Part shown: positions 2,333 through 25,606 of the stretch, piece after piece | Layout of the letters: each line of letters opens with the position of its first letter | How positions within the stretch are numbered: the first letter of the stretch is position 1 | Origin: Rhodospirillales bacterium | Lineage (GTDB): Bacteria; Pseudomonadota; Alphaproteobacteria; ATCC43930; CGMCC-115725 | Assembly: GCA_027315365.1 (NCBI GenBank) | Contig: DAHUYF010000178.1 | Location: 1 to 54,674, forward strand | Length of the DNA: 54,674 nt | Direction of reading: 5' to 3' | Program-made: the position numbers and the translations under genes | Notes under the pieces: generated by a model | Told to the model about the DNA's origin: nothing | What the model saw: only the letters and a program-made list of their open reading frames with translations | Database searches by the model: none

Positions 2333-3532
2333 ATGCTGACCATGGCGGGCCGCATGGCCCAGCTCGGCACCGAGAGTGCCTTCGAGGTGCTCGCCCGCGC
2401 GAAGGCGCTCGAAGCCGAGGGCCGCTCGATCATCAATCTCGGCATCGGCCAGCCTGATTTCGCCACCCCCGCGCATATCGTCGAGGCCGGGCGCAAGGCG
2501 CTCGCCGACGGCCATCACGGCTACACTCCGGCCAATGGCATCCTGCCGCTGCGCGAGGCGGTCGCGGCCGATCTCCACCGCCGCCACCGGGTCGGCGTCT
2601 CGCCCGACCAGGTGCTGGTGGTGCCCGGCGGCAAGGTGACGATGTTCTTCGCCGTGATGATGTTCGGCGAGCCCGGCGCCGAGGTGATCTACCCCAGTCC
2701 CGGCTTCCCGATCTACGAGAGCATCATCCGCTTCTCCGGCGCGACGCCGGTGGCCATGCCGCTCTACGAGGCCAAGGGCTTCTCGTTCAGCGCCGAAGAG
2801 GTGCTGGACAAGATCACGCCGCGCACCCGGCTGCTCATTCTCAACAGCCCGGCCAACCCCACCGGCGGCGCCGTGCCGCGGGCCGAACTCGACGCGCTCG
2901 CGCGCGGCCTCGAGCGCCATCCCCAGGTCGCGATCCTGAGCGACGAGATCTACGGCGAGATGGTCTATGACGGCGCCGAGCATATCAGCCTGCTGACCTA
3001 CCCGGCGCTGCGCGACCGCGTCATTCTGCTCGACGGCTGGAGCAAGACCTATGCGATGACCGGCTGGCGGCTGGGCTACGGGGTCTGGCCGAAGCTGCTC
3101 TTCGCGGCCGCCGAGCGGCTCGCCATCAACTGCCACTCCTGCGTCAATGCCGCCGCGCAGTACGCGGGGATTGCGGCATTGACCGGCCCGAAGGAGGCGT
3201 CGCTCAAGATGCTTGCCGCGTTCGCCGAGCGGCGGCGCTACATCGTGCAGGCGCTCAACGCGCTGCCCGGCTTCCGCTGCGCCACGCCCGGCGGCGCCTT
3301 CTATGCCTTCCCGCAGATCGGCGGCACCGGCTTCGACAGCCGGGCGCTGCAGGCGCGCCTGCTCGACGAGGCCGGCGTCGCCACCATCGCCGGCACCAGC
3401 TTCGGCGTCCACGGCGAGGGGTATCTCCGCTTCTCCTACGCCGCGAGCCTGCCGGCCCTGGAAGAGGCGGTGGCGCGGATCGGCGATTGGCTGGCGCGCC
3501 AGGACAACGATTCCCGGATAAAGACTGCTTAG
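2333..3532 (+). CDS. Class I/II PLP-dependent aminotransferase
   Basis: This 399-residue fold-type I aminotransferase moves an amino group between an amino acid and a 2-oxo acid using pyridoxal phosphate. Family landmarks are INLGIGQPDF near the N-terminus, GYTPANGILPLREA, the NSPANPTGG loop, the cofactor-binding SDEIYGEMVY, and the Schiff-base lysine at about residue 238 in GWSKTYAMTGWRLGYG. The length is normal. AGGAAG lies six bases before the ATG. The subgroup resembles aspartate/aromatic aminotransferases and the many AspC-like paralogues of alphaproteobacteria; the substrate cannot be fixed from sequence alone. The next genes, glnB-glnA, also concern nitrogen, but a regulatory region of about 180 bases separates them, so this is not clearly one operon. 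Confidence 0.9.
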   Translation: MLTMAGRMAQLGTESAFEVLARAKALEAEGRSIINLGIGQPDFATPAHIVEAGRKALADGHHGYTPANGILPLREAVAADLHRRHRVGVSPDQVLVVPGGKVTMFFAVMMFGEPGAEVIYPSPGFPIYESIIRFSGATPVAMPLYEAKGFSFSAEEVLDKITPRTRLLILNSPANPTGGAVPRAELDALARGLERHPQVAILSDEIYGEMVYDGAEHISLLTYPALRDRVILLDGWSKTYAMTGWRLGYGVWPKLLFAAAERLAINCHSCVNAAAQYAGIAALTGPKEASLKMLAAFAERRRYIVQALNALPGFRCATPGGAFYAFPQIGGTGFDSRALQARLLDEAGVATIAGTSFGVHGEGYLRFSYAASLPALEEAVARIGDWLARQDNDSRIKTA

Positions 3533-3544
3533 CCATGCGGCAAT

Positions 3545-3582
3545 TGCCTATTTTTTAGGCAGAATTGCCTCTTTGTTGAGGC
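3545..3582. promoter_or_regulatory. Two phased dyads upstream of glnB (possible NtrC enhancer)
   Basis: TGCCTA-N5-TAGGCA at 3545-3561 is a 17-bp palindrome with the TGC-N11-GCA outline of NtrC sites. A second dyad, GCCTC-N6-GAGGC, follows at 3567-3582. The word AATTGCCT is repeated at 3542 and 3563, exactly 21 bases apart (two helical turns). The dyads lie roughly 75-100 bases upstream of the start expected from the sigma-54 promoter at 3625. They could instead be the weak terminator of the aminotransferase gene. Confidence 0.4.
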
Positions 3583-3624
3583 GTTGATTCGGGCTAGCTT
3601 CGGCCTGCCGCGGCGCGACGCCTC

Positions 3625-3640
3625 TGGCACGGCTCATGCT
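3625..3640 (+). promoter_or_regulatory. Sigma-54 (RpoN) promoter of glnBA
   Basis: TGGCACGGCTCATGCT matches the -24/-12 consensus TGGCAC-N5-TTGCW with one mismatch. The invariant GG (3626-3627) and GC (3638-3639) have the required 12-base phase. Transcription would start near 3651, about 60 bases before the glnB ATG. This fits NtrC-controlled nitrogen-limitation expression of glnBA. Confidence 0.75.
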
Positions 3641-3643
3641 TAA

Positions 3644-4048
<405 letters not shown>

Positions 4049-4133
4049 GCATCGAGGACGCGTCGAGACGTCGAATTCCGGCTGCGCTCTGCGGCGGGCA
4101 ACCCAAGGACCAAGTAACGACGGGAAAGAGGCT

Positions 4134-5543
4134 ATGTCCGACATTAAAAAAGTCATGTCCATGATCAAGGAGCACGACGTCAAGTACGTCGACTTCCGCT
4201 TCACCGATCCGCGCGGCAAGTGGCAGCACTTGGCGCACCACGTCCGCACCGTCACCGAGGATTTCCTCGCCGGGGGCGTGATGTTCGACGGCTCCTCGAT
4301 CGCCGGCTGGAAGGCGATCAACGAGAGCGACATGGTGCTGATGCCGGATTGCGCCACCGCGGTGCTCGATCCCTTTGCGGCGCAGACCTCGCTGATCGTC
4401 GTCTGCGACGTGCACGAGCCGCTGACCGGACAGCCCTATACCCGCGATCCGCGCTCGATCGCCAAGAAGGCGGAAGCCTATCTCGGTTCGACCGGCATCG
4501 GCGACAAGGCCTATTTCGGGCCCGAGGCGGAGTTCTTCATTTTCGACGACGTCCGCTACAAGACCGGCATGAACGGGGCGATGTACGAGATCGACAGCGA
4601 CGAAGGCCCCTATGTCAGCGACAAGAAATATCCCGACGGCAACACCGGCCATCGTCCGCCGATCAAGGGCGGCTATTTCCCGGTGCCGCCGGTCGACGGC
4701 CAGAGCGACATCCGCGCCGAGATGCTCTCGGTGATGGCCGATATGGGCCTCAGGGTCGAGAAGCATCACCACGAGGTGGCGCCGAGCCAGGCCGAGCTCG
4801 GCTTCGAGTTCGGCACCGTCGTCGAATGCGCCGACCATATGCAGATCTACAAGTACGTGGTCCACAACGTCGCGCATCAGTACGGCAAGACCGCGACCTT
4901 CATGCCGAAGCCGATCAAGGGCGACAACGGCTCGGGCATGCATGTGCACCAGTCGCTGTGGAAGGGCAGCAAGCCGCTCTTCGCCGGCTCGGGCTATGCC
5001 GACCTCTCCGACATGGCGCTCTTCTACATCGGCGGCATCATCAAGCACGCCAAGGCGATCAACGCCTTCACCAACCCCACCACCAACAGCTACAAGCGGC
5101 TCATCCCGGGCTTCGAGGCGCCGGTGCTGCTGGCCTATTCCGCGCGCAACCGCTCGGCCTCATGCCGCATCCCGATCGTGTCGAGCCCCAAGGCCAAGCG
5201 CGTCGAGGTGCGTTTCCCCGACCCGGCGGCCAACCCCTATATGGGCTATGCCGCCATGCTCATGGCCGGGCTCGACGGCATCCAGAACAAGATCCATCCC
5301 GGCGATCCCATGGACAAGAACCTCTACGACCTGCCGCCGGAAGAGCTGAAGGACGTGCCCACGGTGTGCGGCTCGCTGCGCGAGGCGATGGAGAACCTGC
5401 GTGCCGACCACGCCTTCCTACTGAAGGGCGACGTCTTCACCAAGGATCTCGTGGAATCCTACATCGAGCTCAAATACGAAGAGATCCACAATTTCGAGCA
5501 CACGCCGCACCCGATCGAGTTCCAGATGTACTACAGCGTCTGA
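4134..5543 (+). CDS. glnA: Glutamine synthetase type I
   Basis: Makes glutamine from glutamate, ammonia and ATP, the main route of ammonium assimilation. The 469 residues match dodecameric GSI. Visible signatures are the N-terminal [26 protein letters not shown], the metal-binding EAEFFIFD and [11 protein letters not shown], and the ATP-binding [27 protein letters not shown] and the adenylylation site NLYDLPPEE (Tyr near 398) follow, so the enzyme should be under GlnE control. The frame is open upstream into glnB, but the ATG at 4134 after GGGAAAGAGG gives the standard start. It is 85 bases downstream of glnB and followed by a strong terminator. Confidence 0.97.
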
Positions 5544-5567
5544 GCGCGACGGACGGCTCGATACAGC

Positions 5568-5596
5568 AGCCCCGCCGGGAAACCGGCGGGGCTTTT
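5568..5596 (+). terminator. Rho-independent terminator of glnBA
   Basis: A perfect 11-bp stem, AGCCCCGCCGG / CCGGCGGGGCT, with a GAAA loop is followed by TTTT, 24 bases after the glnA stop. Confidence 0.92.
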
Positions 5597-5658
5597 GCTT
5601 GCTGCGCCCGACCGCCGGCGCGTCGCGACCCGCATCAGGGCCGGCGCGCGGCAGCGGC

Positions 5659-6084
5659 TCATTTCATCTCGGCGCCGATGGCCCGGAGCGCCGCGCGCGC
5701 GCATTCCATGTCCTGGGTGTAGTGGCCGCCGCTCAGCCCGATCGCGCCGACCGTCTCGCCGTCCAGCACGATGGGAAAGCCGCCGCCGAAGATGATCAGG
5801 CGCGGCGTGTGGGTGATGCCGTGGAGCAGCGGCGGGTCGTCCTTGATGAAGTCGTACCACACATGTGTCGGCATGCCGAAGGAAGCGGCGGTGAACGCCT
5901 TGTCCTGCGCGATCTGGATCGACAGCCCGGGGGCGCCGTCCATGCGCGAGAAGGCTTTGAGATTGCCGGCTTCATCGGTGACGGCAATGCACATGCGGAG
6001 CTTGAGCTCCGCCGCCTTCTGCGCCGCCGCGGTGACGGCACGCTCGGCGGTCTCGGCGTCGATGCTGTGTTTGACAATGCTCAT
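5659..6084 (-). CDS. HbpS/GlcG-family (DUF336) protein
   Basis: A 141-residue protein of the GlcG/HbpS-like fold. Members bind heme or corrinoids, or sit beside oxidoreductases without a known catalytic role. The pattern is clear: AAAQKAAELKLRMCIAVTDE, GNLKAFSRMDGAP, a central AQDKAFTAASFGMPT helix, GGGFPIVLDGETVGAIGLSGG and a C-terminal helix DMECARAAL. There is no signal peptide, so it should be cytosolic. The start at 6084 has a strong GGGGAGGAGAGG site. It faces glnA across the terminator and is not obviously linked to its neighbours. Confidence 0.8.
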   Translation of the reverse strand: MSIVKHSIDAETAERAVTAAAQKAAELKLRMCIAVTDEAGNLKAFSRMDGAPGLSIQIAQDKAFTAASFGMPTHVWYDFIKDDPPLLHGITHTPRLIIFGGGFPIVLDGETVGAIGLSGGHYTQDMECARAALRAIGAEMK

Positions 6085-6216
6085 TCGGCCTCTCCTCCCC
6101 TGCAGCGCGCGCGACATGAGACCCGTGGGCCGGGCCGTTCCGGACGATGATGAACCCGTCCGCCTTGCCGCGTCGGCTCATCTTCGTCTGGTGCCCGGCA
6201 CTGTCAACGCCGGCGA

Positions 6217-6702
6217 TCAGCGATGGCCAGGTTCGGCCGCCGCCGGCTCGCCGGTCACGCGATAGATCATCAGCATGTTGATCGCCTGCCCGTCCGAGGA
6301 CAGCGGCAGCGCCAGCGATTCCTGCCGCCAACGTCGCCCGTCGAGCACCACCCCGTCGTTTTCGTAGAGCGGCGCGGCCGCCGACAGCGCGCGCCGGTAA
6401 TGGCGTTCGGCAAAGTCGCGCATCTCGGGTTCCGGAGCCTGGTCGAGGAACTTCCCGGTCATCTCGTAGCCGAGATGCCGGGTGAGCTGGGTCGAGACCA
6501 CGCGATAGTAGAACCGCGGCGGGCTCTCCAGCACATCGATCAGCGACACGCGGCCCAGGGCATAGTCGAACTCCACGGGATCGATGTCGTCGCGCGACGG
6601 AAAGGCACGCGCGCCGCGGCGCGCGTGCCAGTACAGATAAAGGCGCCGGAGATCGGCATCGGCGCCGACGCGCTCGAGATCGGCAATGTTCGTCACCTTC
6701 AA
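6217..6702 (-). CDS. PAS_5-type sensory domain protein
   Basis: A 161-residue single PAS_5 domain protein, paralogous to 1719-2210. Matching landmarks are LRRLYLYWHARRG, DIDPVEFDYALGRVSLIDV, the core strand RFYYRVVSTQLTRHLGYEMTG and FLDQ. The last 40 residues (RWRQESLALPLSSDG, AINMLMIYRV) supply the final beta strands. It probably senses a small molecule or forms a PAS dimer; no effector domain is attached. It is monocistronic or the last gene of a minus-strand group. Confidence 0.75.
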   Translation of the reverse strand: MKVTNIADLERVGADADLRRLYLYWHARRGARAFPSRDDIDPVEFDYALGRVSLIDVLESPPRFYYRVVSTQLTRHLGYEMTGKFLDQAPEPEMRDFAERHYRRALSAAAPLYENDGVVLDGRRWRQESLALPLSSDGQAINMLMIYRVTGEPAAAEPGHR

Positions 6703-6966
6703 CAGCTTCCTCCGTCGGCGTCGTTTTCAGCCATGCCCCCGCCGCATCCTCCGGCCTGGGCGCGCGGGCGACCGATCACCGGCAGGTTGCGTTTGCAGTG
6801 TCACTTCCAGAGTCAGGTAGACAAGACAGCGCATGGTCGAGCGGCCCCCGGCTCCGAGCAGAGCATATCGGGGCAACCGGGGCAATCCGGCCCGACATCG
6901 CCGACCGACGCCATGTCGGGGTGTGCGCCGCCGTGGAACGGGACGGCGCTCACGTCGATCGGCGGC

Positions 6967-7170
6967 CTAGTTGACGCTCTCGCTGTCGCCCCGGACGCGG
7001 GTAAGCTCGTGGACCGCCTGGTCGACCTGCAGCCAGGAGGCGATGGCCGAGGCCTCGACCTCGCCGTCGCGCAATCGGGCGATCCGCGCACTGACCACGT
7101 TGGGCGCGGCCGCGCCGTGCTTGGCAACCAGCCAGGCGGCGACGGTCCAGATGTTGCGGTTGATCACCAT
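6967..7170 (-). CDS. Small helical protein, DUF6961-like (copy 1 of 3)
   Basis: A 67-residue protein starting MVINRNIWTVAAWLVAKHG. The pattern W-x2-A-x2-LV-x2-HG-x2-A-x2-V, then a second helix ending in a W and V-x2-A-x2-EL, is shared with the two proteins at 7401-7676 and 7666-7875. It resembles short proteins annotated DUF6961 in alphaproteobacteria, which have no known function. A longer start (7218 or 7237) is possible, but the extra residues are not conserved among the three. No membrane segment or metal site is visible. Confidence 0.55.
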   Translation of the reverse strand: MVINRNIWTVAAWLVAKHGAAAPNVVSARIARLRDGEVEASAIASWLQVDQAVHELTRVRGDSESVN

Positions 7171-7362
7171 CCTGGAAGTTGAACGACGCGCCGCCGCGCG
7201 AAGTTCCGGCGCGACCATCCTTCCGCGCGCACGACATGCCGCGCCGCGTCGAAGCGGTCGCGCCGCGCCGGGCGCTTATGGGCAGCAGGCATCGACTTTG
7301 TCGCTCCCGAAACTCTTTCGTCCATGGTGGACGAGAGCGTCGGTCCGGGGCAACGGAAGTCT

Positions 7363-7370
7363 ATGGTTAA
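7363..7370 (-). promoter_or_regulatory. CtrA-type half-site TTAACCAT
   Basis: TTAACCAT reads on the minus strand about 190 bases upstream of the gene at 6967-7170. It is one of three such words in the window, all outside the confidently called genes. In alphaproteobacteria this word is the CtrA half-site, but a single half-site is weak evidence. Confidence 0.25.
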
Positions 7371-7400
7371 CGAAAAATTTCCCGGGCGGCGCAGCCCCGC

Positions 7401-7676
7401 TCAGGCATCCGCCATGCGTCGCAGCAGCGCCCGCGTCGCCTCGATCACCGCGCGCCAGGCATCGAGCGCCAGATCGTCGCCGATCTCGACCGCGCGCCGC
7501 GCCCGGTCCTGGGCGAAGGTCAGCGCGTCGATGCCATATTTGTCGGTCAGGCTACGCGCCATGCGCGCCGCATCGGAAGCTTCGAGCATGACCGGAGAAC
7601 GCTCGAGCGGCCGCAATGCCTCCATGGGAGCTTGCGAATTCCGCCGATTGTCGCGACCGCCGCCTTCAATGGACAT
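7401..7676 (-). CDS. Small helical protein, DUF6961-like (copy 2 of 3)
   Basis: A 91-residue protein with a polar N-terminal extension of about 30 residues, followed by the shared helical module: AARMARSLTDKYGIDALTFA, QDRARRA, then DAWRAVIEATRALL. Its ATG lies inside the last codons of the upstream gene (11-base overlap with 7666-7875), so the two are probably translationally coupled. Relative to the sister proteins it has MARSLTDKYG where they have LV-x2-HG. Function unknown. An alternative start lies 17 codons inside (MEALRPLER). Confidence 0.6.
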   Translation of the reverse strand: MSIEGGGRDNRRNSQAPMEALRPLERSPVMLEASDAARMARSLTDKYGIDALTFAQDRARRAVEIGDDLALDAWRAVIEATRALLRRMADA

Positions 7677-7875
7677 GCTCGTCCTCTCCCGGCTCGGATT
7701 TGATCAGCTCGGCGGTCGCGCGCGCGATCCAGCACCAGACGACGTAGGTGAGGTCATCGGCGCCGTCGCCGTGCTTCTTGGCCTCGCGCCCGGCAACGTC
7801 CGCCGCGTCTTCGCCATGGCGGCGGACCAGCAGCATCGCCGCCTCCCAGATCTGCCTTTCGCTCGTCATCACCAT
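7666..7875 (-). CDS. Small helical protein, DUF6961-like (copy 3 of 3)
   Basis: A 69-residue protein beginning MVMTSERQIWEAAMLLVRRHG, then DAADVAGREAKKHGDGAD and a second helix with VVWCWIARATAELIKS. It is the closest of the trio to proteins I know as DUF6961-like. Its last codons overlap the start of the next gene (7401-7676). The ATG at 7875 is chosen because homology with the other two begins there; 7923 is also open. No function is known. Confidence 0.6.
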   Translation of the reverse strand: MVMTSERQIWEAAMLLVRRHGEDAADVAGREAKKHGDGADDLTYVVWCWIARATAELIKSEPGEDEHVH

Positions 7876-7967
7876 GCGCCACCACCCGCCTCTTGCGGGC
7901 GAGAACCGGCGCGGCCGGGCCAATGGCCGCCGCGGCCGCGCCGATCCTCACGTCCTTCGGACCGAGG

Positions 7968-17861: not shown

Positions 17862-18647
17862 ATGGCTGCGGATCCGGCAAGACCGCTTCTCGGACGGCAT
17901 GCCGTCGTCACCGGCGGCGGCGGCGGCATCGGCGCCGCGGCGGCCCTGGAGCTGGCGCGGCTCGGCGCCCGGCTGAGCCTGCTAGGCCGCCGGCCGGAGC
18001 CGCTCGCCGCACAGAGCCGCGCCATCGCCGACAGCACCGGCAGCGAGGTGGCGACCCTGAGCCTCGACGTTACCGATGCGGGGGCGGTGCCGGCGGCCTT
18101 CGCCCGGCTCGGCGCCGTCGACATCCTCGTCAACAATGCCGGCGCTGCCGAGAGCGCACCGTTTCTCAAGACCGGGCTCGATCTGCTCGAGCGCATGCTC
18201 GCGGTCAACCTGAAGGCCGCCTTCCTGTGCAGCCAGGCGGTGCTGCCCGGCATGCTTGCTTCCGGCCAGGGCAGGATCGTCAACATCGCCTCGACCGCGG
18301 GCCTCATCCCCTACGCCTATGTCAGCGCCTATGTCGCGGCCAAGCACGCGCTGGTCGGGCTGACCCGCGCGCTGGCGCTGGAGACCGCGAAGAGCGGCAT
18401 CACCGTCAACGCCGTCTGCCCCGGCTTCACCGACACCGACCTCGTCGCCCGCGCCGTCGCGACGATTACCGCCAAGACCGGGCGCTCGGCCGAAGCGGCG
18501 CGCGGCGAACTCGCCAAGACCAACCCGATGGGGCGCCTCGTCAGCCCGCAGGAAGTGGCCGGCGCGATCGCCTTCCTCTGCCTGCCGGGCAGCGGCGCGG
18601 TGACCGGACAGGCGATCGTCGTCGCCGGCGGCGAGGTGATGGGGTGA
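17862..18647 (+). CDS. SDR-family NAD(P)-dependent dehydrogenase
   Basis: A 261-residue classical short-chain dehydrogenase. The cofactor loop TGGGGGIGAAAALELARLG, NNAG near residue 91 and the catalytic set Ser144, Tyr157 and Lys161 (IAST, YVSAYVAAK) are present, and VNAVCPGFTDTDLV follows. It resembles 3-hydroxyacyl-CoA/3-oxoacyl reductases. As the first gene of an operon with an aromatic-CoA ligase and ring-modifying flavoproteins, it most likely oxidises a hydroxyacyl-CoA intermediate of the ring-derived chain. GAGGACG precedes the ATG. The next gene starts with GTG overlapping its stop (GTGA). Confidence 0.85.
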   Translation: MAADPARPLLGRHAVVTGGGGGIGAAAALELARLGARLSLLGRRPEPLAAQSRAIADSTGSEVATLSLDVTDAGAVPAAFARLGAVDILVNNAGAAESAPFLKTGLDLLERMLAVNLKAAFLCSQAVLPGMLASGQGRIVNIASTAGLIPYAYVSAYVAAKHALVGLTRALALETAKSGITVNAVCPGFTDTDLVARAVATITAKTGRSAEAARGELAKTNPMGRLVSPQEVAGAIAFLCLPGSGAVTGQAIVVAGGEVMG

Positions 18648-19147
18648 GCGAGCTGCGGCTGCAGGGGACGGCCTCCGATCGGGAATCGGCGCTGGTAAGC
18701 GACGACAAGCTCGAGTTGAAGCTCTGGCTGCGCCTCCTCACCTGCAGCAACCTCATCGAGGGCGAGGTGCGCGCGCGGCTGCGCGAGACCTTCGCCACCA
18801 CCCTGCCCCGCTTCGACCTCCTGGCGCAGATCGATCGCGCGCCGGACGGATTGACCATGGGCGAGCTGTCCTCGCGGCTGATGGTGAGCAACGGCAACGT
18901 CACCGGCCTCACCGACGCGCTGGAGCGCGAGGGCCTGGTCTCGCGCCTGCCCGAGCCGGAGGATCGGCGCAGCCTGCGCATCCGCCTCACCCCTTCCGGC
19001 AAGCGCGCCTTCGACGCCATGACCCCCACCCACGAGCAGTGGATCGATCAGATGATGGCCGGCCTCACCCGCGCCGAGATGGCGCATCTGCTGGAACTGC
19101 TGGGCCGGCTCAAGCAATCGGCGCAACGCGCCGGCGCCGCGTCATGA
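18644..19147 (+). CDS. MarR-family transcriptional regulator
   Basis: A 167-residue winged-helix regulator: SNLIEGEVRARLRETFATTL dimer helix, FDLLAQIDRAPDGLTMGELS, recognition helix with VSNGNVTGLTDALEREGLV, then the wing EPEDRRSLRIRLTPSGK and a C-terminal dimerisation helix. MarR proteins usually repress until an aromatic compound or its CoA ester binds. The gene overlaps the SDR stop (GTG at 18644) and is followed by the OYE gene, so it sits inside the operon it probably controls through the palindrome at 17823-17840. Confidence 0.88.
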   Translation: MSELRLQGTASDRESALVSDDKLELKLWLRLLTCSNLIEGEVRARLRETFATTLPRFDLLAQIDRAPDGLTMGELSSRLMVSNGNVTGLTDALEREGLVSRLPEPEDRRSLRIRLTPSGKRAFDAMTPTHEQWIDQMMAGLTRAEMAHLLELLGRLKQSAQRAGAAS

Positions 19148-19175: not shown

Positions 19176-20648
19176 GTGACCGCCGCGATGAAGCTCCTGT
19201 CGCCGCTCCGCATCAACGGCATGACGCTGCCCAACCGGGCGGTGGTGCCGGCGATGGTGACGCGGCTCTCCGGCGAGGACGGCTATGTCAACGCGGCGGT
19301 GATCGAGCGCTACCTGCGCTACGCCGAGGGCCGGGTCGGTCTCATCGTGGTCGAAGCGACCGCCATCCACGGCAACAAATCGGGGCCGCTGCTGCGGCTT
19401 TCCGATGCCAGCTTCGTCCCCGGCCATCGCGAGCTGGCGCGGCGCGTGCACGACGCCTCCGACTCCAAGATCGTGCCGCAGATCATTCATTTCCTGAAGG
19501 TCGCGCGCTCCGGCTGGCGGCAGCGGATCGACAGCCTGTCGAGCGCCGATATCGACCTCATCGTCGACCAGTTCGCCGCCGCCGCGGCGCGCGCGCGCGA
19601 GGCCGGCTATGACGGCGTCGAACTGCATTCGGCGCATGCCTATACGCTCTCCTCCTTCCTGTCGCGCCACAACCCGCGCCGCGATGCCTATGACGGGCGC
19701 ACGCTGGAAGGACGCTTGCGCCTGTTCGGCCGCGTCATGGCGGCGGTCCGCCGGCGCGTCGGTGCGGATTTCCCGGTCGGCGTGCGCTTCCTCGCCGAGG
19801 AGGCGATCAAGGACGGCTACGCGCTGCCCGATGCCGAGCGTATCGCACTGCGCATGGCGCAGCTCGGCGTCGACTACATCTCGCTGTCGGTCGGCGGCAA
19901 GTTCGAGGACGCCATCCACAAGCCGGGCCAGCCGCTCTACCCCTATACCGGCTATTCCGGCGACCGCTGCATGCCCGGCGACTGGTATCCGGCGCTGCCG
20001 CATGCCGAGCACGCCGCGGCGGTGAAGCGCTACATCAACGGCAAGGGCTATCAGGTGCCGGTGATCTCGGTCGGCAAGATCAGCGATCCCGCGGATGCAG
20101 AGCGGCTTCTCGCCGAAGGCAAGGCCGATCTGATCGGCATGGCGCGCCAATTGCTGTCCGATCCCGATTGGGTGCGCAAGCTCGCCGAGGGTCGCAGCGA
20201 CGCGATCATCCGCTGCATCTACTGCAATGTCTGCAAGCAGCTCGACGAGAACTTCAAGCTCGTCACCTGCTTTCTCTGGCCCAAGGGGACGGTCCAGGCG
20301 CCGCGCGAGGACGCATCGGGCGCCGGCCCCGACTGGGATGCCGACGGCGCCGGGCTCGCCGGCGAGATCCGCGACGGCCGGGTGCGGCTCACCTGGTGCA
20401 AGCCCAGGGGCGAAATCGCCGGCTACGACATCCACCGCGCCGAGGAGGACGGCGAAGCGCTGGTCGTCGAAGCGGTAAAGAGCACGAAATTCACCGACCG
20501 GCTGGCCTTGGGCGGGCTGCGCTACAGTTACTACGTGCGCGCCTACGACAGCTCGGGCCGCCATAGCCCGCCTTCCAACCGCGTCACTATCGACATGCCC
20601 CTTCCCGATCTTTCGGCCATCGCGCCGGCGGAGTCCTCCCATGCTTGA
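19176..20648 (+). CDS. Old-yellow-enzyme-type NADH:flavin oxidoreductase with Fe-S cysteines and C-terminal FN3 domain
   Basis: A 490-residue protein in two parts. Residues 1-345 are an FMN-binding TIM barrel of the old yellow enzyme type: PLRINGMTLPNRAVVPAM, then VELHSAHAYTLSSFLS with the substrate-binding HxxH, and VPVISVGKI / ADLIGMARQLLSDP at the FMN phosphate. Next comes CIYCNVC and a fourth Cys 12 residues on (C-x2-C-x2-C-x11-C, from about residue 347), much like the 4Fe-4S motif of 2,4-dienoyl-CoA reductase. Residues 395-480 do not form the flavin/NAD domain of that enzyme but a fibronectin type III sheet (VRLTWCKP, GYDIHRA, YYVRAYDSSG). Its partner genes suggest reduction of an aromatic or dearomatised CoA thioester. 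The start is GTG; an ATG lies four codons inside. Its stop overlaps the ligase start by eight bases. Confidence 0.85.
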   Translation: MTAAMKLLSPLRINGMTLPNRAVVPAMVTRLSGEDGYVNAAVIERYLRYAEGRVGLIVVEATAIHGNKSGPLLRLSDASFVPGHRELARRVHDASDSKIVPQIIHFLKVARSGWRQRIDSLSSADIDLIVDQFAAAAARAREAGYDGVELHSAHAYTLSSFLSRHNPRRDAYDGRTLEGRLRLFGRVMAAVRRRVGADFPVGVRFLAEEAIKDGYALPDAERIALRMAQLGVDYISLSVGGKFEDAIHKPGQPLYPYTGYSGDRCMPGDWYPALPHAEHAAAVKRYINGKGYQVPVISVGKISDPADAERLLAEGKADLIGMARQLLSDPDWVRKLAEGRSDAIIRCIYCNVCKQLDENFKLVTCFLWPKGTVQAPREDASGAGPDWDADGAGLAGEIRDGRVRLTWCKPRGEIAGYDIHRAEEDGEALVVEAVKSTKFTDRLALGGLRYSYYVRAYDSSGRHSPPSNRVTIDMPLPDLSAIAPAESSHA

Positions 20649-22347
20649 TCCCAGCGCCCATATCGACAGCTTCTGCCGCGACCATCTGCCGCCGCGCGAG
20701 GAGTGGCCGGTCTTCGACCATGGCGGGCTTCCCGAGCTCGACTATCCCAAGCGCCTCAACGCCGCCGTCGAGCTGCTCGACCGCATGGTCGAGAAGGGCT
20801 TCGGCGGACGGCCTTGCCTGCGGCGCGAAGGCGTCGAATGGAAGTCGGTCATCGATCCCGACAGCCATCAGCCCGCGGCCCAGCCGGTCGCTACCATCGA
20901 GATCTGGACCTATGCCGACCTGCTGGAGCGCGCCAACCGCATCGCCAACCTGCTGGTGAACGAGCTGGGATTGGTGCCGGGCGAGCGCGTGCTGCTGCGC
21001 GACGCCAACACGCCGATGATGGCGGCGTGCTGGTTCGCCGTGCTCAAGGCGGGCGGCGTCGCGGTCGCCACCATGCCGTTGCTGCGCGCGCGCGAGCTTG
21101 CCTACATCATCGACAAGGCCAGGGTGAAATACGCGCTGTGCGCCGAGGATCTGGCATCCGAGCTCGACGCGGCGCGCCAGCACACGCCGGTGCTGGAGAA
21201 GCGCGTGCTGTTCCGCAGTGAACGGCCCGAGGGGCTCGAGGCGCGCATGGCAGCACAGCCGGCGAGCTTCGCCAACATCCTCACCTCGCATGACGATGTG
21301 GCACTCATCGCCTTCACCTCCGGCACCACCGGCGCCGCCAAGGGCACGATGCATTTCCATCGCGACGTCCTGGCGATCTGCGACTGCTTCCCGCGCTACG
21401 TGCTGAAGCCCGGGCCCGACGACATCTTCTGCGGCAGCCCCCCCTTGGCCTTCACCTTTGGCCTCGGCGGCATGCTGCTCTTCCCGATGCGGGTGGGCGC
21501 CTCGACCCTGCTGATGCCCAAGGTGACCGCCGAAGGGCTGCTGCAGGCGATCCAGCGCCATCGCTGCACCATCTGCTTCACCGCGCCGACCCTCTATCGC
21601 GCGATGGCGGATCTCGCGCGCAACTTCGATCTCTCGTCGCTGAAGAAATGCGTCTCGGCCGGCGAGACCCTGCCGCTGCCGATCTTCGAGACGTGGCAGC
21701 GCGCCACCGGCATCAAGATCATCGACGGCATCGGCTCGACAGAGATCCTGCACATCTTCATCTCCGCCGCCGGCGACGACATCCGCCCCGGCGCCACCGG
21801 CAAGCCGATACCCGGATACCAGGCGATGGTAGTGGACGAGACCGGCCGGCCGCTGCCGCCCGACAGCGTCGGCCGCCTCGCCGTGCGCGGACCGACCGGC
21901 TGCCGCTATCTCGACATGCCGGAGCAGCAGAAGAAATACGTGCAGCACGGCTGGAACCTCACCGGCGACGCCTACCGCATGGATCGCGACGGCTATTTCT
22001 GGTACCAGGCACGCACCGACGACATGATCATCAGCGCCGGCTACAACATCTCCGGCCCCGAGGTCGAGGCGGTGCTGCTCGACCATCCCAAGGTGCTGGA
22101 ATGCGCCGTGGTCGGCAGCCCCGACCCTGAGCGTGGCGAGGTGGTCAAGGCCTTCGTCGTGCTGCGCCCGGGTATCGGCACCGACGAGGCGACGCGGAGC
22201 GAGCTGCAGGACTACGTCAAGGCCGAGATCGCGCCCTACAAATACCCCCGCGCGGTCGAGTTCGTGACCTCGCTGCCGCGCACCGAGACCGGCAAGATCC
22301 AGCGCTTCCGCCTGCGCGAGGAAGAGCGGCGGAAGCCGGCAGGCTGA
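20641..22347 (+). CDS. Aromatic acid-CoA ligase, benzoate/2-aminobenzoate-CoA ligase type
   Basis: A 568-residue AMP-forming ligase of the benzoate-CoA ligase family. Motifs seen: FTSGTTGAAKGTMHFHRDVL (phosphate loop), FCGSPPLAFTFGLGG, IDGIGSTEILHIFIS, LTGDAYRMDRDGYFWYQART, and the C-terminal lysine in ETGKIQRF. The N-terminus (AHIDSFCRDHLPPREEWPVF) and the overall pattern fit proteins annotated 2-aminobenzoate-CoA ligase better than plain benzoate-CoA ligase; this is from memory of the family, not a search. It would activate an aromatic acid with ATP and CoA, the first step of the pathway encoded here. The ATG lies inside the last codons of the OYE gene, so the two are translationally coupled. 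Confidence 0.85.
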   Translation: MLDPSAHIDSFCRDHLPPREEWPVFDHGGLPELDYPKRLNAAVELLDRMVEKGFGGRPCLRREGVEWKSVIDPDSHQPAAQPVATIEIWTYADLLERANRIANLLVNELGLVPGERVLLRDANTPMMAACWFAVLKAGGVAVATMPLLRARELAYIIDKARVKYALCAEDLASELDAARQHTPVLEKRVLFRSERPEGLEARMAAQPASFANILTSHDDVALIAFTSGTTGAAKGTMHFHRDVLAICDCFPRYVLKPGPDDIFCGSPPLAFTFGLGGMLLFPMRVGASTLLMPKVTAEGLLQAIQRHRCTICFTAPTLYRAMADLARNFDLSSLKKCVSAGETLPLPIFETWQRATGIKIIDGIGSTEILHIFISAAGDDIRPGATGKPIPGYQAMVVDETGRPLPPDSVGRLAVRGPTGCRYLDMPEQQKKYVQHGWNLTGDAYRMDRDGYFWYQARTDDMIISAGYNISGPEVEAVLLDHPKVLECAVVGSPDPERGEVVKAFVVLRPGIGTDEATRSELQDYVKAEIAPYKYPRAVEFVTSLPRTETGKIQRFRLREEERRKPAG

Positions 22348-22487: not shown

Positions 22488-22513
22488 ATTGACGCGACGG
22501 GCAAGAGGGAGTG

Positions 22514-24136
22514 ATGACGCAAGGGGGCTCGGCGACGGGAGGCGGCTATGCGCTGCCGGTCTTTCCCTATCGCCGGCCGGCGGAGCTGGCAGGCGAAACC
22601 AGGCGCCACAAGGTCGCGGTGGTGGGCGGCGGCCTCGCCGGCCTGACCGCGGCGTGTGACCTTGCCAGCCGCGGCATCCCGGTCGTGCTGCTCGACGAGG
22701 ATGACACGGTGGGGGTGCGCGGCGCCTCGAGCCGCGGCATCGTCTATGCGCAAAAGACGCTCGAGATCTTCGACCGCCTCGGGATATATCGCCGGGTCGC
22801 GGAAAAGGGCGTCACCTGGTCGGTCGGACGGGTGCTGGCCGATGACGACCTGCTTTACAGCTTCGACGCGGCGCAAGGCTCGCAATCGCGCCAGCCGCCC
22901 TTCATCAACCTGCAGCAATTCTACATAGAATGGTATCTGGTCGATCGCCTGGCGGAGCTGCCCGAGGCCGAGCTGCGCTGGCGCAACCGGGTCACCGGCA
23001 TCACCCTCCATGACGACCACGCGGCGCTTGCCGTTGAAACACCGGACGGCAGCTACACGCTCGAATCGGAATGGGTGATCGACGCCTCCGGGCTGGCGAG
23101 CCGCGTCCGTCAGGTGCTCGGCGCCCGCATGGCGGCCGAGCTGGGCGAGGACCGCTGGTGCATCAGCGATGTCCGCTTCGAGAAGACGCTACCGGCCGAG
23201 CGCTGGACCTGGGCCAAGGCGGCGTTCAATGATGGCCGCGCCGTCTGGCAGCATCCGATGGCGGATGGCGTCTGGCGGCTCGACTATCAGATGGGCGCCG
23301 ACGCCGATCCGCAAACCATCGCCGATCCCGAGACGGTCCGGGACCGCTTGCGCCGTCATCTCGGCGCGACGCGGGTGGAGATCGTCTGGGTCGGCCCCTA
23401 TGGCTATCGCACCCAGCTCATGGAGAATTTCCGCCACGGCCGCGTCTTCTTCGCCGGCGACGTCGCGCACGTCATGAACCCGTTCGGCGCGCGCGGCGGC
23501 AATAGCGGCGTGCAGGACGCCGAGAACATCGCCTGGAAGCTCGCCGCGGTGCTGACCGGCGCCGCGCCCGAAGCGCTGCTCGACAGCTACGACGAGGAGC
23601 GCCATGCCGCCGGCGCGCACAACATCCGGGTCACCACGCGCACCATCCGCTTTCTGGCGCCGCGCTCGCCCTTCGAGCACCGCCTGCGCGATGCCGTGCT
23701 CGATCTTGCGCGGCGCTATGACTTCGCTCGCGCGCTGGTCAACACCGGCCGGCTCTCGGCGCCCTTCGACTATGCCGGCTCCGCGCTGACGACGAGCGGC
23801 GGCGGGTCGCTGCCCAATCTCCCGCTCGTCCATCCCGACGGCACGCCGGGCGCGCTCAGCGACCTGCTGCGCGGCCCCGGCGCGCGCTTCCTGGTGCTGT
23901 GCTTTCCCGGCAGCGCCGCGCCGGAGCTGCCCGCCGGGCTGGCGCGGTGCTTTGCCTGCGGCGGCGCGGTGGGCGATCTTCCGGTGCTGCGCGGCGACGC
24001 GATCGACCGCCTCGCCGGCGCCGGCGAGGTGCTGGTCGTCCGGCCGGACCAGCATCTGGCGGCGCGGCTGCTGCGGCCGGAAACGACGGCGGTGCGCGCC
24101 GCCATCGACCGGGCCCTCGGCCGGGAGTGCCGATGA
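22514..24136 (+). CDS. FAD-dependent aromatic monooxygenase (PHBH/MhpA superfamily)
   Basis: A 540-residue group A flavoprotein hydroxylase. The FAD-binding VVGGGLAGLTAACDLASRG is at residues 38-56. The DG-type strand (WVIDASGLASRVRQ) and the second FAD motif FFAGDVAHVMNPFGARGGNS follow. From about residue 420 there is a C-terminal thioredoxin-like domain as in MhpA and phenol hydroxylases (FLVLCFPGSAAPELP), without redox cysteines. It would use NAD(P)H and O2 to hydroxylate an aromatic ring. A GTG one codon upstream is an alternative start. Its stop overlaps the next ATG (ATGA). The substrate is not determinable; context suggests a step of the aromatic acid route. Confidence 0.85.
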   Translation: MTQGGSATGGGYALPVFPYRRPAELAGETRRHKVAVVGGGLAGLTAACDLASRGIPVVLLDEDDTVGVRGASSRGIVYAQKTLEIFDRLGIYRRVAEKGVTWSVGRVLADDDLLYSFDAAQGSQSRQPPFINLQQFYIEWYLVDRLAELPEAELRWRNRVTGITLHDDHAALAVETPDGSYTLESEWVIDASGLASRVRQVLGARMAAELGEDRWCISDVRFEKTLPAERWTWAKAAFNDGRAVWQHPMADGVWRLDYQMGADADPQTIADPETVRDRLRRHLGATRVEIVWVGPYGYRTQLMENFRHGRVFFAGDVAHVMNPFGARGGNSGVQDAENIAWKLAAVLTGAAPEALLDSYDEERHAAGAHNIRVTTRTIRFLAPRSPFEHRLRDAVLDLARRYDFARALVNTGRLSAPFDYAGSALTTSGGGSLPNLPLVHPDGTPGALSDLLRGPGARFLVLCFPGSAAPELPAGLARCFACGGAVGDLPVLRGDAIDRLAGAGEVLVVRPDQHLAARLLRPETTAVRAAIDRALGRECR

Positions 24137-24339
24137 TGAGGACCGATCCGAACATTCCCGACGCCGACGGCTTCTATGAAGCGCTGATCGCCGCCCAGGA
24201 GGGGCTGAGCGAGGCGGCGTGCGAGGCCTTCCTGCTGCGCTTCGCCCTGCTGCTCGCCAACCAGGTGGGCGACCAGCAGGTGCTGCTCGAGGCGATTGCG
24301 GCGGCGCGCGCGATGATCGCGGACAAGGCGCATGGCTGA
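24133..24339 (+). CDS. DUF2783 protein
   Basis: A 68-residue helical protein: PNIPDADGFYEALIAAQEGL, then LLRFALLLANQVGDQQVLLE and a final AAARAMI helix. This is the DUF2783 pattern, a family that I know mainly as a neighbour of MhpA-like FAD monooxygenases; it may be a small partner or stabiliser. The usual LNARL-x-LLLANHIGD core is LLRFALLLANQVGD here. The gene overlaps the monooxygenase stop by four bases and the following gene by eight, so its stoichiometry is probably tied to both. Confidence 0.8.
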   Translation: MMRTDPNIPDADGFYEALIAAQEGLSEAACEAFLLRFALLLANQVGDQQVLLEAIAAARAMIADKAHG

Positions 24340-25606
24340 GCGGCGATGCCGGCGCTTGGCGATCGCGGTGCTGCTGCTGGCGCTCGCCTGCGGCGCACCC
24401 GGTGCCGCCGTCGCGGCCGGTGACGAATATCTGTGCGGCCCTTACGTCGGCCTCGATATCAAGCTTGCGCCGGCGATCCGCACCGATGTCGGCATTTCCG
24501 GCGACGATCACGCCTTCAGCTGCCTGGCATGGCAGAGCTTCATCTATCTCAACTGGCCGGCCAAGACGCCGGGCGAGCCCGATCGCGACGCCCGCTTCGG
24601 CCGTCCCGGCGTCACCGTCTGGGAAACCTACAAGCGTCATGACGAGGTGTTCCTTCAGGGGGGTGCACCGCCCGCGCCCTGGGGCGTCCCCGACCGCTCG
24701 CACGGCATGCCGCAGCGTCTCGCGATCATCCATCAGACCGATGGCGAGACCCTGGTCGACCGCGCCGGCAAGCCGGTCTATTACGAGATGCTGATCAACC
24801 GCGACGAGTTCAACTACATCGTCGCCAACCGCCTATACGACCCGGCCGCGCAGTTCGCCTTGGCACGGCGCGGCGATGTCGAGCTGCCCGCCGGCCCCAG
24901 CGCCGCCTACGGACCCACCGGCGCGATCGAGATCAAGGCGGCGTGGAAGGTGCTGAGTCCGGCCGAGCTGGCGCAATCGCCGCGCCGCTTCCACACCGCC
25001 GAAGCGGTCTTCGAGGACGGCTCGACCGCCACCGTGGGGCTGGTGGGCTTCCATCTCAACCAGCGCGTCACCGGCTTCACGCAAGGCCTCTGGGCGAGCT
25101 TCCTGCAGATCGACAGCGCCCCGGTGGCGGGCGCGGAAGAGACGGGGCACGCCTATTCCTTCTACGATCCCGCCTGCGCCCGCTGCGCCGTCAATGCCCG
25201 CACCGAGCCGCCGCAGAGCACCCAGGTCGAGCAGGTCTTTCCCGTCGCGCCCTCCGCGCGGGCGATCAACGACTTCGTCCAGGCCCTCATCCGCGCCGAC
25301 GATCCGGCCTCGCCCTGGCAGTTCTACGAGCTGCTGGGCGTGCAATGGCCGCAATATGCGTTCGGCCTGCCGGCGCCGGTGCCGGATCCGCAACGCCGCC
25401 TGCCGCGCGGCGTGCCGCTCTCGGTCGGCACGCCCAGCACCCGGACGCTGATGAACCCGGTGCTCGAGACCTTTCGCCAAACGCCCAATGTGAGCTGTCT
25501 CGGCTGCCATGCCGACGCGGCGATCGCGCCGCAGGCCGGCGCACCGCCGCTCGCCGCCGATTACAGCTTTTTGCTCGGCCACGCGCAGGCCGCCGCGCGC
25601 GAGTGA
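24332..25606 (+). CDS. Secreted protein with single CxxCH heme c motif, function unknown
   Basis: A 424-residue exported protein. The signal peptide is clear (LAIAVLLLALACGAPGAAVAAG). The mature chain has many Trp/Tyr residues (FSCLAWQSFIYLNWPAK, VTVWETYKRHDEVF) and a late FRQTPNVSCLGCHADA with the CxxCH motif near residue 389. It is thus a predicted periplasmic monoheme cytochrome-like protein in which the heme site is C-terminal; a Met ligand is not evident nearby. I do not recognise a named family. The ATG overlaps the DUF2783 stop by eight bases, tying a periplasmic product to a cytosolic monooxygenase pair. It is the last gene of the operon and converges with the chemoreceptor. Confidence 0.75.
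   Translation: MAERRCRRLAIAVLLLALACGAPGAAVAAGDEYLCGPYVGLDIKLAPAIRTDVGISGDDHAFSCLAWQSFIYLNWPAKTPGEPDRDARFGRPGVTVWETYKRHDEVFLQGGAPPAPWGVPDRSHGMPQRLAIIHQTDGETLVDRAGKPVYYEMLINRDEFNYIVANRLYDPAAQFALARRGDVELPAGPSAAYGPTGAIEIKAAWKVLSPAELAQSPRRFHTAEAVFEDGSTATVGLVGFHLNQRVTGFTQGLWASFLQIDSAPVAGAEETGHAYSFYDPACARCAVNARTEPPQSTQVEQVFPVAPSARAINDFVQALIRADDPASPWQFYELLGVQWPQYAFGLPAPVPDPQRRLPRGVPLSVGTPSTRTLMNPVLETFRQTPNVSCLGCHADAAIAPQAGAPPLAADYSFLLGHAQAAARE

Follow-up and report, generated by a model that had tools for sequence, protein, structure and literature searches.

What does an old yellow enzyme (OYE) that ends in a fibronectin type III (FN3) domain do, and from where does it obtain its electrons? The question is raised by a gene, here called OYE-FN3, on a 54,674-nucleotide stretch of DNA from a Rhodospirillales bacterium (the window). 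The gene lies among the following features.

17862..18647, + strand: short-chain dehydrogenase (SDR), a conserved neighbour
18680..19147 (start approximate), + strand: MarR-family regulator, a conserved neighbour
19176..20648, + strand: OYE-FN3 protein, 490 aa from GTG 19176; likely start ATG 19188 (MKLLSPL)
19191..20195, + strand: OYE TIM barrel; its predicted FMN site includes H151, H154, Y156 and R204, and a GGKFEDA loop spans residues 240-246
20214..20270, + strand: C-x2-C-x2-C-x11-C (C347/C350/C353/C365), probable Fe-S ligands
20355..20597, + strand: FN3 domain, about residues 394-474
20641..22347, + strand: acyl-CoA ligase of the benzoate-CoA-ligase family (379.3 bits to TIGR02262, cut-off 375.25); it starts within the 3' end of OYE-FN3
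22511..24136, + strand: FAD monooxygenase, PRK08132 subfamily, with a homologue in 1 of 80 loci
24133..24339 (start approximate), + strand: DUF2783 protein, adjoining the FAD monooxygenase

ATG 19188 is the likelier start of OYE-FN3 because many homologues start there with MKLLEPL. A 424-aa protein encoded at window positions 24332-25606 (+) matched nothing in Pfam or NCBIfam at the thresholds applied.

An OYE barrel, a cysteine segment and an FN3 domain

An earlier note on this DNA had read the open reading frame at 19176-20648 as an OYE barrel with an FN3 domain at the C-terminus and, between the two, the motif C-x2-C-x2-C-x11-C, and Pfam, AlphaFold2, Foldseek and conservation across the family all bear this out. 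PF00724 (Oxidored_FMN) matches the frame with its best stretch at residues 6-238 (E 3.6e-46), and the first PDB sequence match of the whole protein (phmmer) is 2,4-dienoyl-CoA reductase. The full-length AlphaFold2 model, built from 51 alignment rows, has a pLDDT of 86.2 and a pTM of 0.86. It contains seven strands at residues 395-473, and the FN3 domain folded alone is a seven-strand sandwich with a pLDDT of 95.7. The best PDB matches of the isolated domain in Foldseek are the FN3 consensus protein FN3con (E 2.0e-5) and fibronectin FN14 (E 3.4e-5); titin and integrin beta4 are also matched. Thus, a beta-sandwich is predicted within residues 395-480, the region where the note had said that the lack of one would count against an FN3-like C-terminus.

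Sequence comparisons place the domain near the limit of recognition. The first match of the tail to PDB sequences is again FN3con (E 2.6e-4). Pfam fn3 (PF00041) gives E 3.1e-5 with the tail alone, at 24.5 bits against a gathering cut-off of 25, and a sub-threshold match at residues 398-471 with the whole protein. In all 51 family members scanned, fn3 scored below its cut-off. At a Pfam E of 0.01 it was detected in 6 of the 51 (best in L082, E 5.9e-5, 23.6 bits), which may be why the domain stays unannotated. We regard the predicted fold as a stronger test of FN3 membership than the gathering score, and we reject a chance resemblance to FN3, since both the fold and the conservation of the domain speak against it.

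The cysteine segment relates the protein to the three-domain Fe-S OYEs, that is, 2,4-dienoyl-CoA reductase (DCR; FadH in PDB 1ps9), trimethylamine dehydrogenase (TMADH), histamine dehydrogenase and 2-naphthoyl-CoA reductase (NCR). OYE-FN3 has their four-cysteine segment after the barrel but not the FAD/NAD(P)H or ADP domains found at their C-termini. As the note had it, the flavin/NAD module is absent: FN3 occupies the C-terminal region of a protein that is only 490 aa long. FadH, like OYE-FN3, has an Fe-S segment placed after an OYE barrel, and it acts on CoA thioesters, as OYE-FN3 may also do, but it has FAD and NADPH domains where OYE-FN3 has FN3. The note had also matched the cluster to the 2,4-dienoyl-CoA reductase group. 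The assignment to the Fe-S OYEs stands, but the spacing differs from that of the E. coli enzyme, which aligns only with a gap (C-x2-C-x3-C; x2-x3 before the third cysteine, versus x2-x2 in OYE-FN3); the motif of histamine dehydrogenase aligns gap-free. The top VIA-align match of the model is NCR (PDB 6qkg; Z 45.4, rmsd 2.2 over 354 residues), an aryl-CoA enzyme, as OYE-FN3 would also be in the role proposed below. Structural similarity to trimethylamine and histamine dehydrogenases is likewise high (Z 42-44), although OYE-FN3 lacks their ADP domain. Pairwise VIA alignments with the three-domain OYEs stop near model residue 465; a few residues of FN3 might therefore overlie the beginning of the FAD domain. 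We propose that the Fe-S segment was inherited from enzymes of this group and that FN3 replaces their FAD/NAD or ADP module, where it probably caps the Fe-S region or anchors the protein in an assembly.

The architecture is widely conserved. A genome scan confirmed 94 relatives, of which 80 loci were kept (best-segment identity 52-85%). In the survey of C-termini that the note had suggested, 79 of the 80 matches extend to query residue 472 or beyond, and the remaining one (L059) ends where its contig ends. Judged by record title, the loci come mostly from alpha- and betaproteobacterial metagenome bins and a few named strains, Oceanibacterium hippocampi (L018) among them, with further bins assigned to acidobacteria, planctomycetes, actinomycetes, SAR324 and Tectomicrobia. 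Because most genomes are metagenome bins, absences count weakly. Averaged over the positions of a 51-row alignment, the commonest residue accounts for 76% of the barrel, 75% of the Fe-S segment, 45% of the linker and 55% of FN3. A search of the open-access literature found no description of an OYE and FN3 fusion, which does not establish its absence in print; Oxidored_FMN and fn3 were mentioned together only in separate rows of one table, and the other matches were, by title, unrelated or about enzyme immobilisation.

Flavin site and source of electrons

H151, H154, Y156 and R204 are present in 51 of 51 OYE-FN3 members. They align with the H-x2-H-x-Y motif and the arginine of plain OYEs, residues that we take to have flavin-site roles. 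YqjM-type OYEs share this motif and arginine with OYE-FN3 but have neither the Fe-S segment nor FN3, and at the position that presumably corresponds to YqjM Cys26, OYE-FN3 has a valine. Ordinary OYEs are not known to have a separate NAD-binding domain.

In the available text of PMC6502838, standard OYEs are described as having two histidines and one arginine around FMN, of which the low-potential, dearomatising NCR retains only the arginine; NCR also has an FAD domain. Both histidines are invariant in OYE-FN3 (51 of 51), and we therefore reject an NCR-like dearomatising reductase (a type III aryl-CoA reductase). Thus, despite the top structural match to NCR, the chemistry that we expect is that of a standard OYE, in which NAD(P)H supplies a hydride for an activated double bond. 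FMN itself, like the other cofactors, is predicted.

The note had offered a different source, a separate partner docked through FN3, and here its prediction fared poorly. In such a scheme, FN3 would bind a redox partner that feeds electrons via the Fe-S cluster to FMN. The conservation of the cysteines is consistent with this: C347, C353 and C365 are kept in 51 of 51 aligned members and C350 in 48, so that all four are present in 48 of 51, and in relatives the cluster is described as connecting FMN with FAD or ETF (PMC6502838, available text). However, the invariant flavin-site residues are those of the ordinary, NAD(P)H-using kind, no electron carrier is found among the annotated common neighbour genes, C350 has been lost from three members, and a sister protein without FN3 and with threonine in place of one cysteine occupies the same operon slot. 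We therefore consider this scheme quite unlikely.

The three members with glycine in place of C350 are L072, L084 and L087. The genomes of L084 and L087 were searched for ACMR (see below), and it was not found in either.

The sister protein, OYE2 (L131-L133, L150 and L160), is found in or near similar operons and has a threonine in place of the second Fe-S cysteine. It ends 34-50 residues past the last motif cysteine, has the motif C-x2-T-x2-C in 5 of 5 members, and, judged by eye, has roughly 70 extra residues in the barrel. The loop GGK[FHY][ED]DA is present in 51 of 51 OYE-FN3 proteins, 3 of 5 OYE2 proteins and 0 of 72 ACMR rows. In a phylogenetic tree, OYE2 and OYE-FN3 group together, apart from ACMR and from other OYEs encoded in the window's genome. 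Support for this grouping is moderate (88/97) and comes with a long-branch warning; the FN3 proteins do not form a supported group of their own (16/0). In operons with the order SDR, MarR, hydratase, dehydrogenase, X, ligase, ACMR, X is OYE-FN3 in L143 and OYE2 in L150 and L160, and the slot is empty in L154, L155 and L157, whose three genomes belong to a single genus. The ACMR of L143 is identical to that of L025, so L143 is not an independent case. Provided that OYE2 carries out the same step, its presence in the slot suggests that neither FN3 nor a complete set of cysteines is essential.

An amine-dehydrogenase-like enzyme of the TMADH or histamine dehydrogenase type, removing an amino group oxidatively, would also fit some of these features. 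The cysteine spacing is that of histamine dehydrogenase, a CIxCNVC stretch is that of TMADH, and the proposed substrate (see below) bears an amine. Yet Val28, in 51 of 51 members, occupies what we take to be the place of the TMADH cysteinyl-FMN, the ADP domain is absent, and RidA-family genes, present in some of the loci, could free ammonia without oxidation. We judge this reading highly improbable.

Gene neighbours and co-occurrence with ACMR

Neighbouring genes were counted over the 80 loci at set thresholds, with genes lost at contig ends scored as misses. The window's type of ligase is present in 53 loci, the SDR in 49, the MarR regulator in 48, an acyl-CoA dehydrogenase (identity backed by a Pfam match) in 42 and an enoyl-CoA hydratase in 34 (one was tested and passed the PRK08258 cut-off); all five occur together in 24 of the 80. 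Co-occurrence with the ligase gene, which the note had suggested surveying, thus extends to 53 loci, or to 66 if a second type of aryl ligase is counted. This second type (13 loci) is nearest to 2,3-dihydroxybenzoate adenylases (TIGR02275) and scores under that model's cut-off. It suggests that some members may serve salicylate-like acids or another ortho-substituted benzoate. Other neighbours are less frequent. A RidA-family gene (Pfam Ribonuc_L-PSP) is present in 7 of the 80 loci (9 by a looser listing), and a branched-chain-amino-acid-type ABC transporter accompanies some of the clusters (each component in 10-19 loci, with Pfam support for four parts). Kynureninase-like and tryptophan-2,3-dioxygenase-like genes are clustered with OYE-FN3 in 3 of the 80 loci (L067, L072 and L087) and point to anthranilate; those of L067 fall under the NCBIfam cut-offs, and those of L072 pass the cut-offs of Pfam KYNU_C and Trp_dioxygenase.

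The FAD monooxygenase at 22511-24136 was considered as a fixed partner and rejected: a homologue was found only in L060, on a contig that ends after its first 67 residues, so the gene is probably outside the conserved unit. In L086, a single 1068-aa open frame (2709-5915, +) covers OYE-FN3 and a CoA ligase. Apparent fusions of OYE-FN3 to the acyl-CoA dehydrogenase, in which long open reading frames overlap that gene, were taken for upstream open frames.

The available text of a review (PMC4539516) gives ACMR as the key enzyme of aerobic 2-aminobenzoyl-CoA breakdown. Like OYE-FN3, ACMR (2-aminobenzoyl-CoA monooxygenase/reductase; NCBIfam PRK08255) contains an OYE domain, and the two share neighbourhoods and genomes. 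ACMR differs in being an FAD monooxygenase fused to a plain OYE, with no Pfam fn3 match, and in forming a separate clade. PRK08255 matches OYE-FN3 at 134.2 bits, in the OYE part only, against a cut-off of 1078 bits; OYE-FN3 is thus not an ACMR. ACMR is encoded directly after the ligase in L025, L032 and L040 and about 1.1 kb after OYE-FN3 in L051 (4 of 80 loci). In the remaining genomes that have it, its gene lies beyond the sequence retrieved on either side of OYE-FN3.

The two proteins occur together far beyond these four loci. We sampled 241 genomes of Alphaproteobacteria, asking for 90% completeness and scoring the first few candidates per genome, and found OYE-FN3 in 14 (E 1e-100) and ACMR in 46 (E 1e-270; 45 over the cut-off). 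ACMR is present in 13 of the 14 genomes with OYE-FN3, the sole exception being G239, versus 33 of the 227 without it (Fisher p 1.2e-9, kinship not corrected). Among 61 relatives, including the window's own genome, three have OYE-FN3 and three have the FN3-less sister. ACMR is present in all six of these, though only partially in G003, versus 7 of the 55 others. A further set of 45 OYE-FN3 genomes was made up from 43 of the 80 loci, two of which share a genome, together with G000, G003 and G041. In 30 of these, ACMR scores over the cut-off; six others (G092, G101, G102, G003, G061 and G094) carry copies that are fragmented or score below it, and a full ACMR was not found in the other 9. Among 14 named control genomes, ACMR was over the cut-off in none, and weaker OYE matches were detected in 12 at E 1e-20. 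In the window's genome, ACMR is on contig C208, a hydratase and a dehydrogenase are on C109, and a tryptophan dioxygenase (over the cut-off) and a kynureninase-like gene are on C104.

In the class sample, 33 of the 46 ACMR genomes lack OYE-FN3 at E 1e-100, and at least two of these (G137 and G148) have the FN3-less sister; the OYE-FN3 step is therefore not obligatory. On a tree of ACMRs, the presence of OYE-FN3 is clustered (10 changes versus 23.9 when shuffled, reached in 0 of 500 shuffles), and OYE-FN3 alternates with OYE2 and with none inside clades. Here, "none" means none found: OYE2 was searched in part of the genomes, and L161 is labelled none though its genome has OYE2. Position 528 in the OYE half (Tyr or Trp) splits two ACMR clades, which are defined by the tree and not by the presence of OYE-FN3.

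In L087, a single gene of the PaaA/PaaC family (di-iron epoxidase type; 6175-6897, +) lies between the enoyl-CoA hydratase and OYE-FN3. As ACMR was not found in the L087 genome, this protein could be a substitute oxygenase. L087 is the only locus with a solitary gene of this type next to OYE-FN3. The genomes G087, G097, G323 and G096 have homologues on other stretches, that of G097 adjoining MarR- and RidA-like genes. The PaaA/PaaC Pfam model gave matches in 7 of 7 genomes searched and in 4 of 14 controls and is thus not specific.

A proposed role in anthranilate breakdown

Based on these results, we favor, with moderate confidence, a role for OYE-FN3 as an FMN ene-reductase in the pathway that degrades anthranilate, and perhaps other ortho-substituted benzoates, aerobically and in a CoA-dependent manner. 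The ligase would form 2-aminobenzoyl-CoA, and ACMR would hydroxylate and partially reduce the ring. OYE-FN3 would then take a hydride from NAD(P)H onto FMN and reduce an activated C=C bond (an enone or an enoyl- or dienoyl-thioester) of a later intermediate. The ring would next be opened and the product beta-oxidised, with the enoyl-CoA hydratase, the SDR and the acyl-CoA dehydrogenase as the enzymes. On chemical grounds, the later intermediates can be enones or enoyl/dienoyl-CoAs; the review names the later steps only as "beta-oxidation" in its available text (PMC4539516). Both NAD(P)H as the donor and the exact step are inferred. Against this role, ACMR already has an OYE half of its own, and FN3 is less conserved than the barrel.

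Alternatively, in a split ACMR, OYE-FN3 would take the place of the OYE half and act directly on the hydroxylated 2-aminobenzoyl-CoA that a stand-alone FAD monooxygenase supplies. Some loci and genomes fit this arrangement. In L081, a homologue of the N-terminal half of ACMR without the OYE half is near OYE-FN3, with one ligase gene between them; in L074, a 945-aa open reading frame (5082-7919, -) combining an ACMR-type FAD monooxygenase half with a CoA-ligase-type domain is beside and divergent from OYE-FN3; and three of the nine OYE-FN3 genomes without a full ACMR (G083, G093 and G095) have the N-terminal half. However, some form of ACMR is present in 36 of the 45 OYE-FN3 genomes, and OYE-FN3 and the ACMR OYE half are not grouped in the tree. 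In addition, an alignment of 70 distinct ACMR sequences shows H568, H571 and Y573 of the OYE half in all 70, and we reject a loss of that half in ACMRs that travel with OYE-FN3. A replacement of this kind is possible but unlikely.

We also considered that an Fe-S OYE exchanged its FAD/NAD module for an FN3 that docks onto the ligase or ACMR, giving a channelled complex with a second, unrecognised reductive step. This elaboration is speculative, and we think it unlikely.

OYE-FN3 is an uncharacterised, widely conserved enzyme, a bacterial redox protein with FN3 where its relatives have electron-delivery domains. The occurrence of OYE2 in the same operon slot provides a natural control for the roles of FN3 and the Fe-S segment. 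If the role that we favor is correct, OYE-FN3 would add an enzyme to the aerobic breakdown of 2-aminobenzoyl-CoA, and thus to a pathway for anthranilate, a product of tryptophan.
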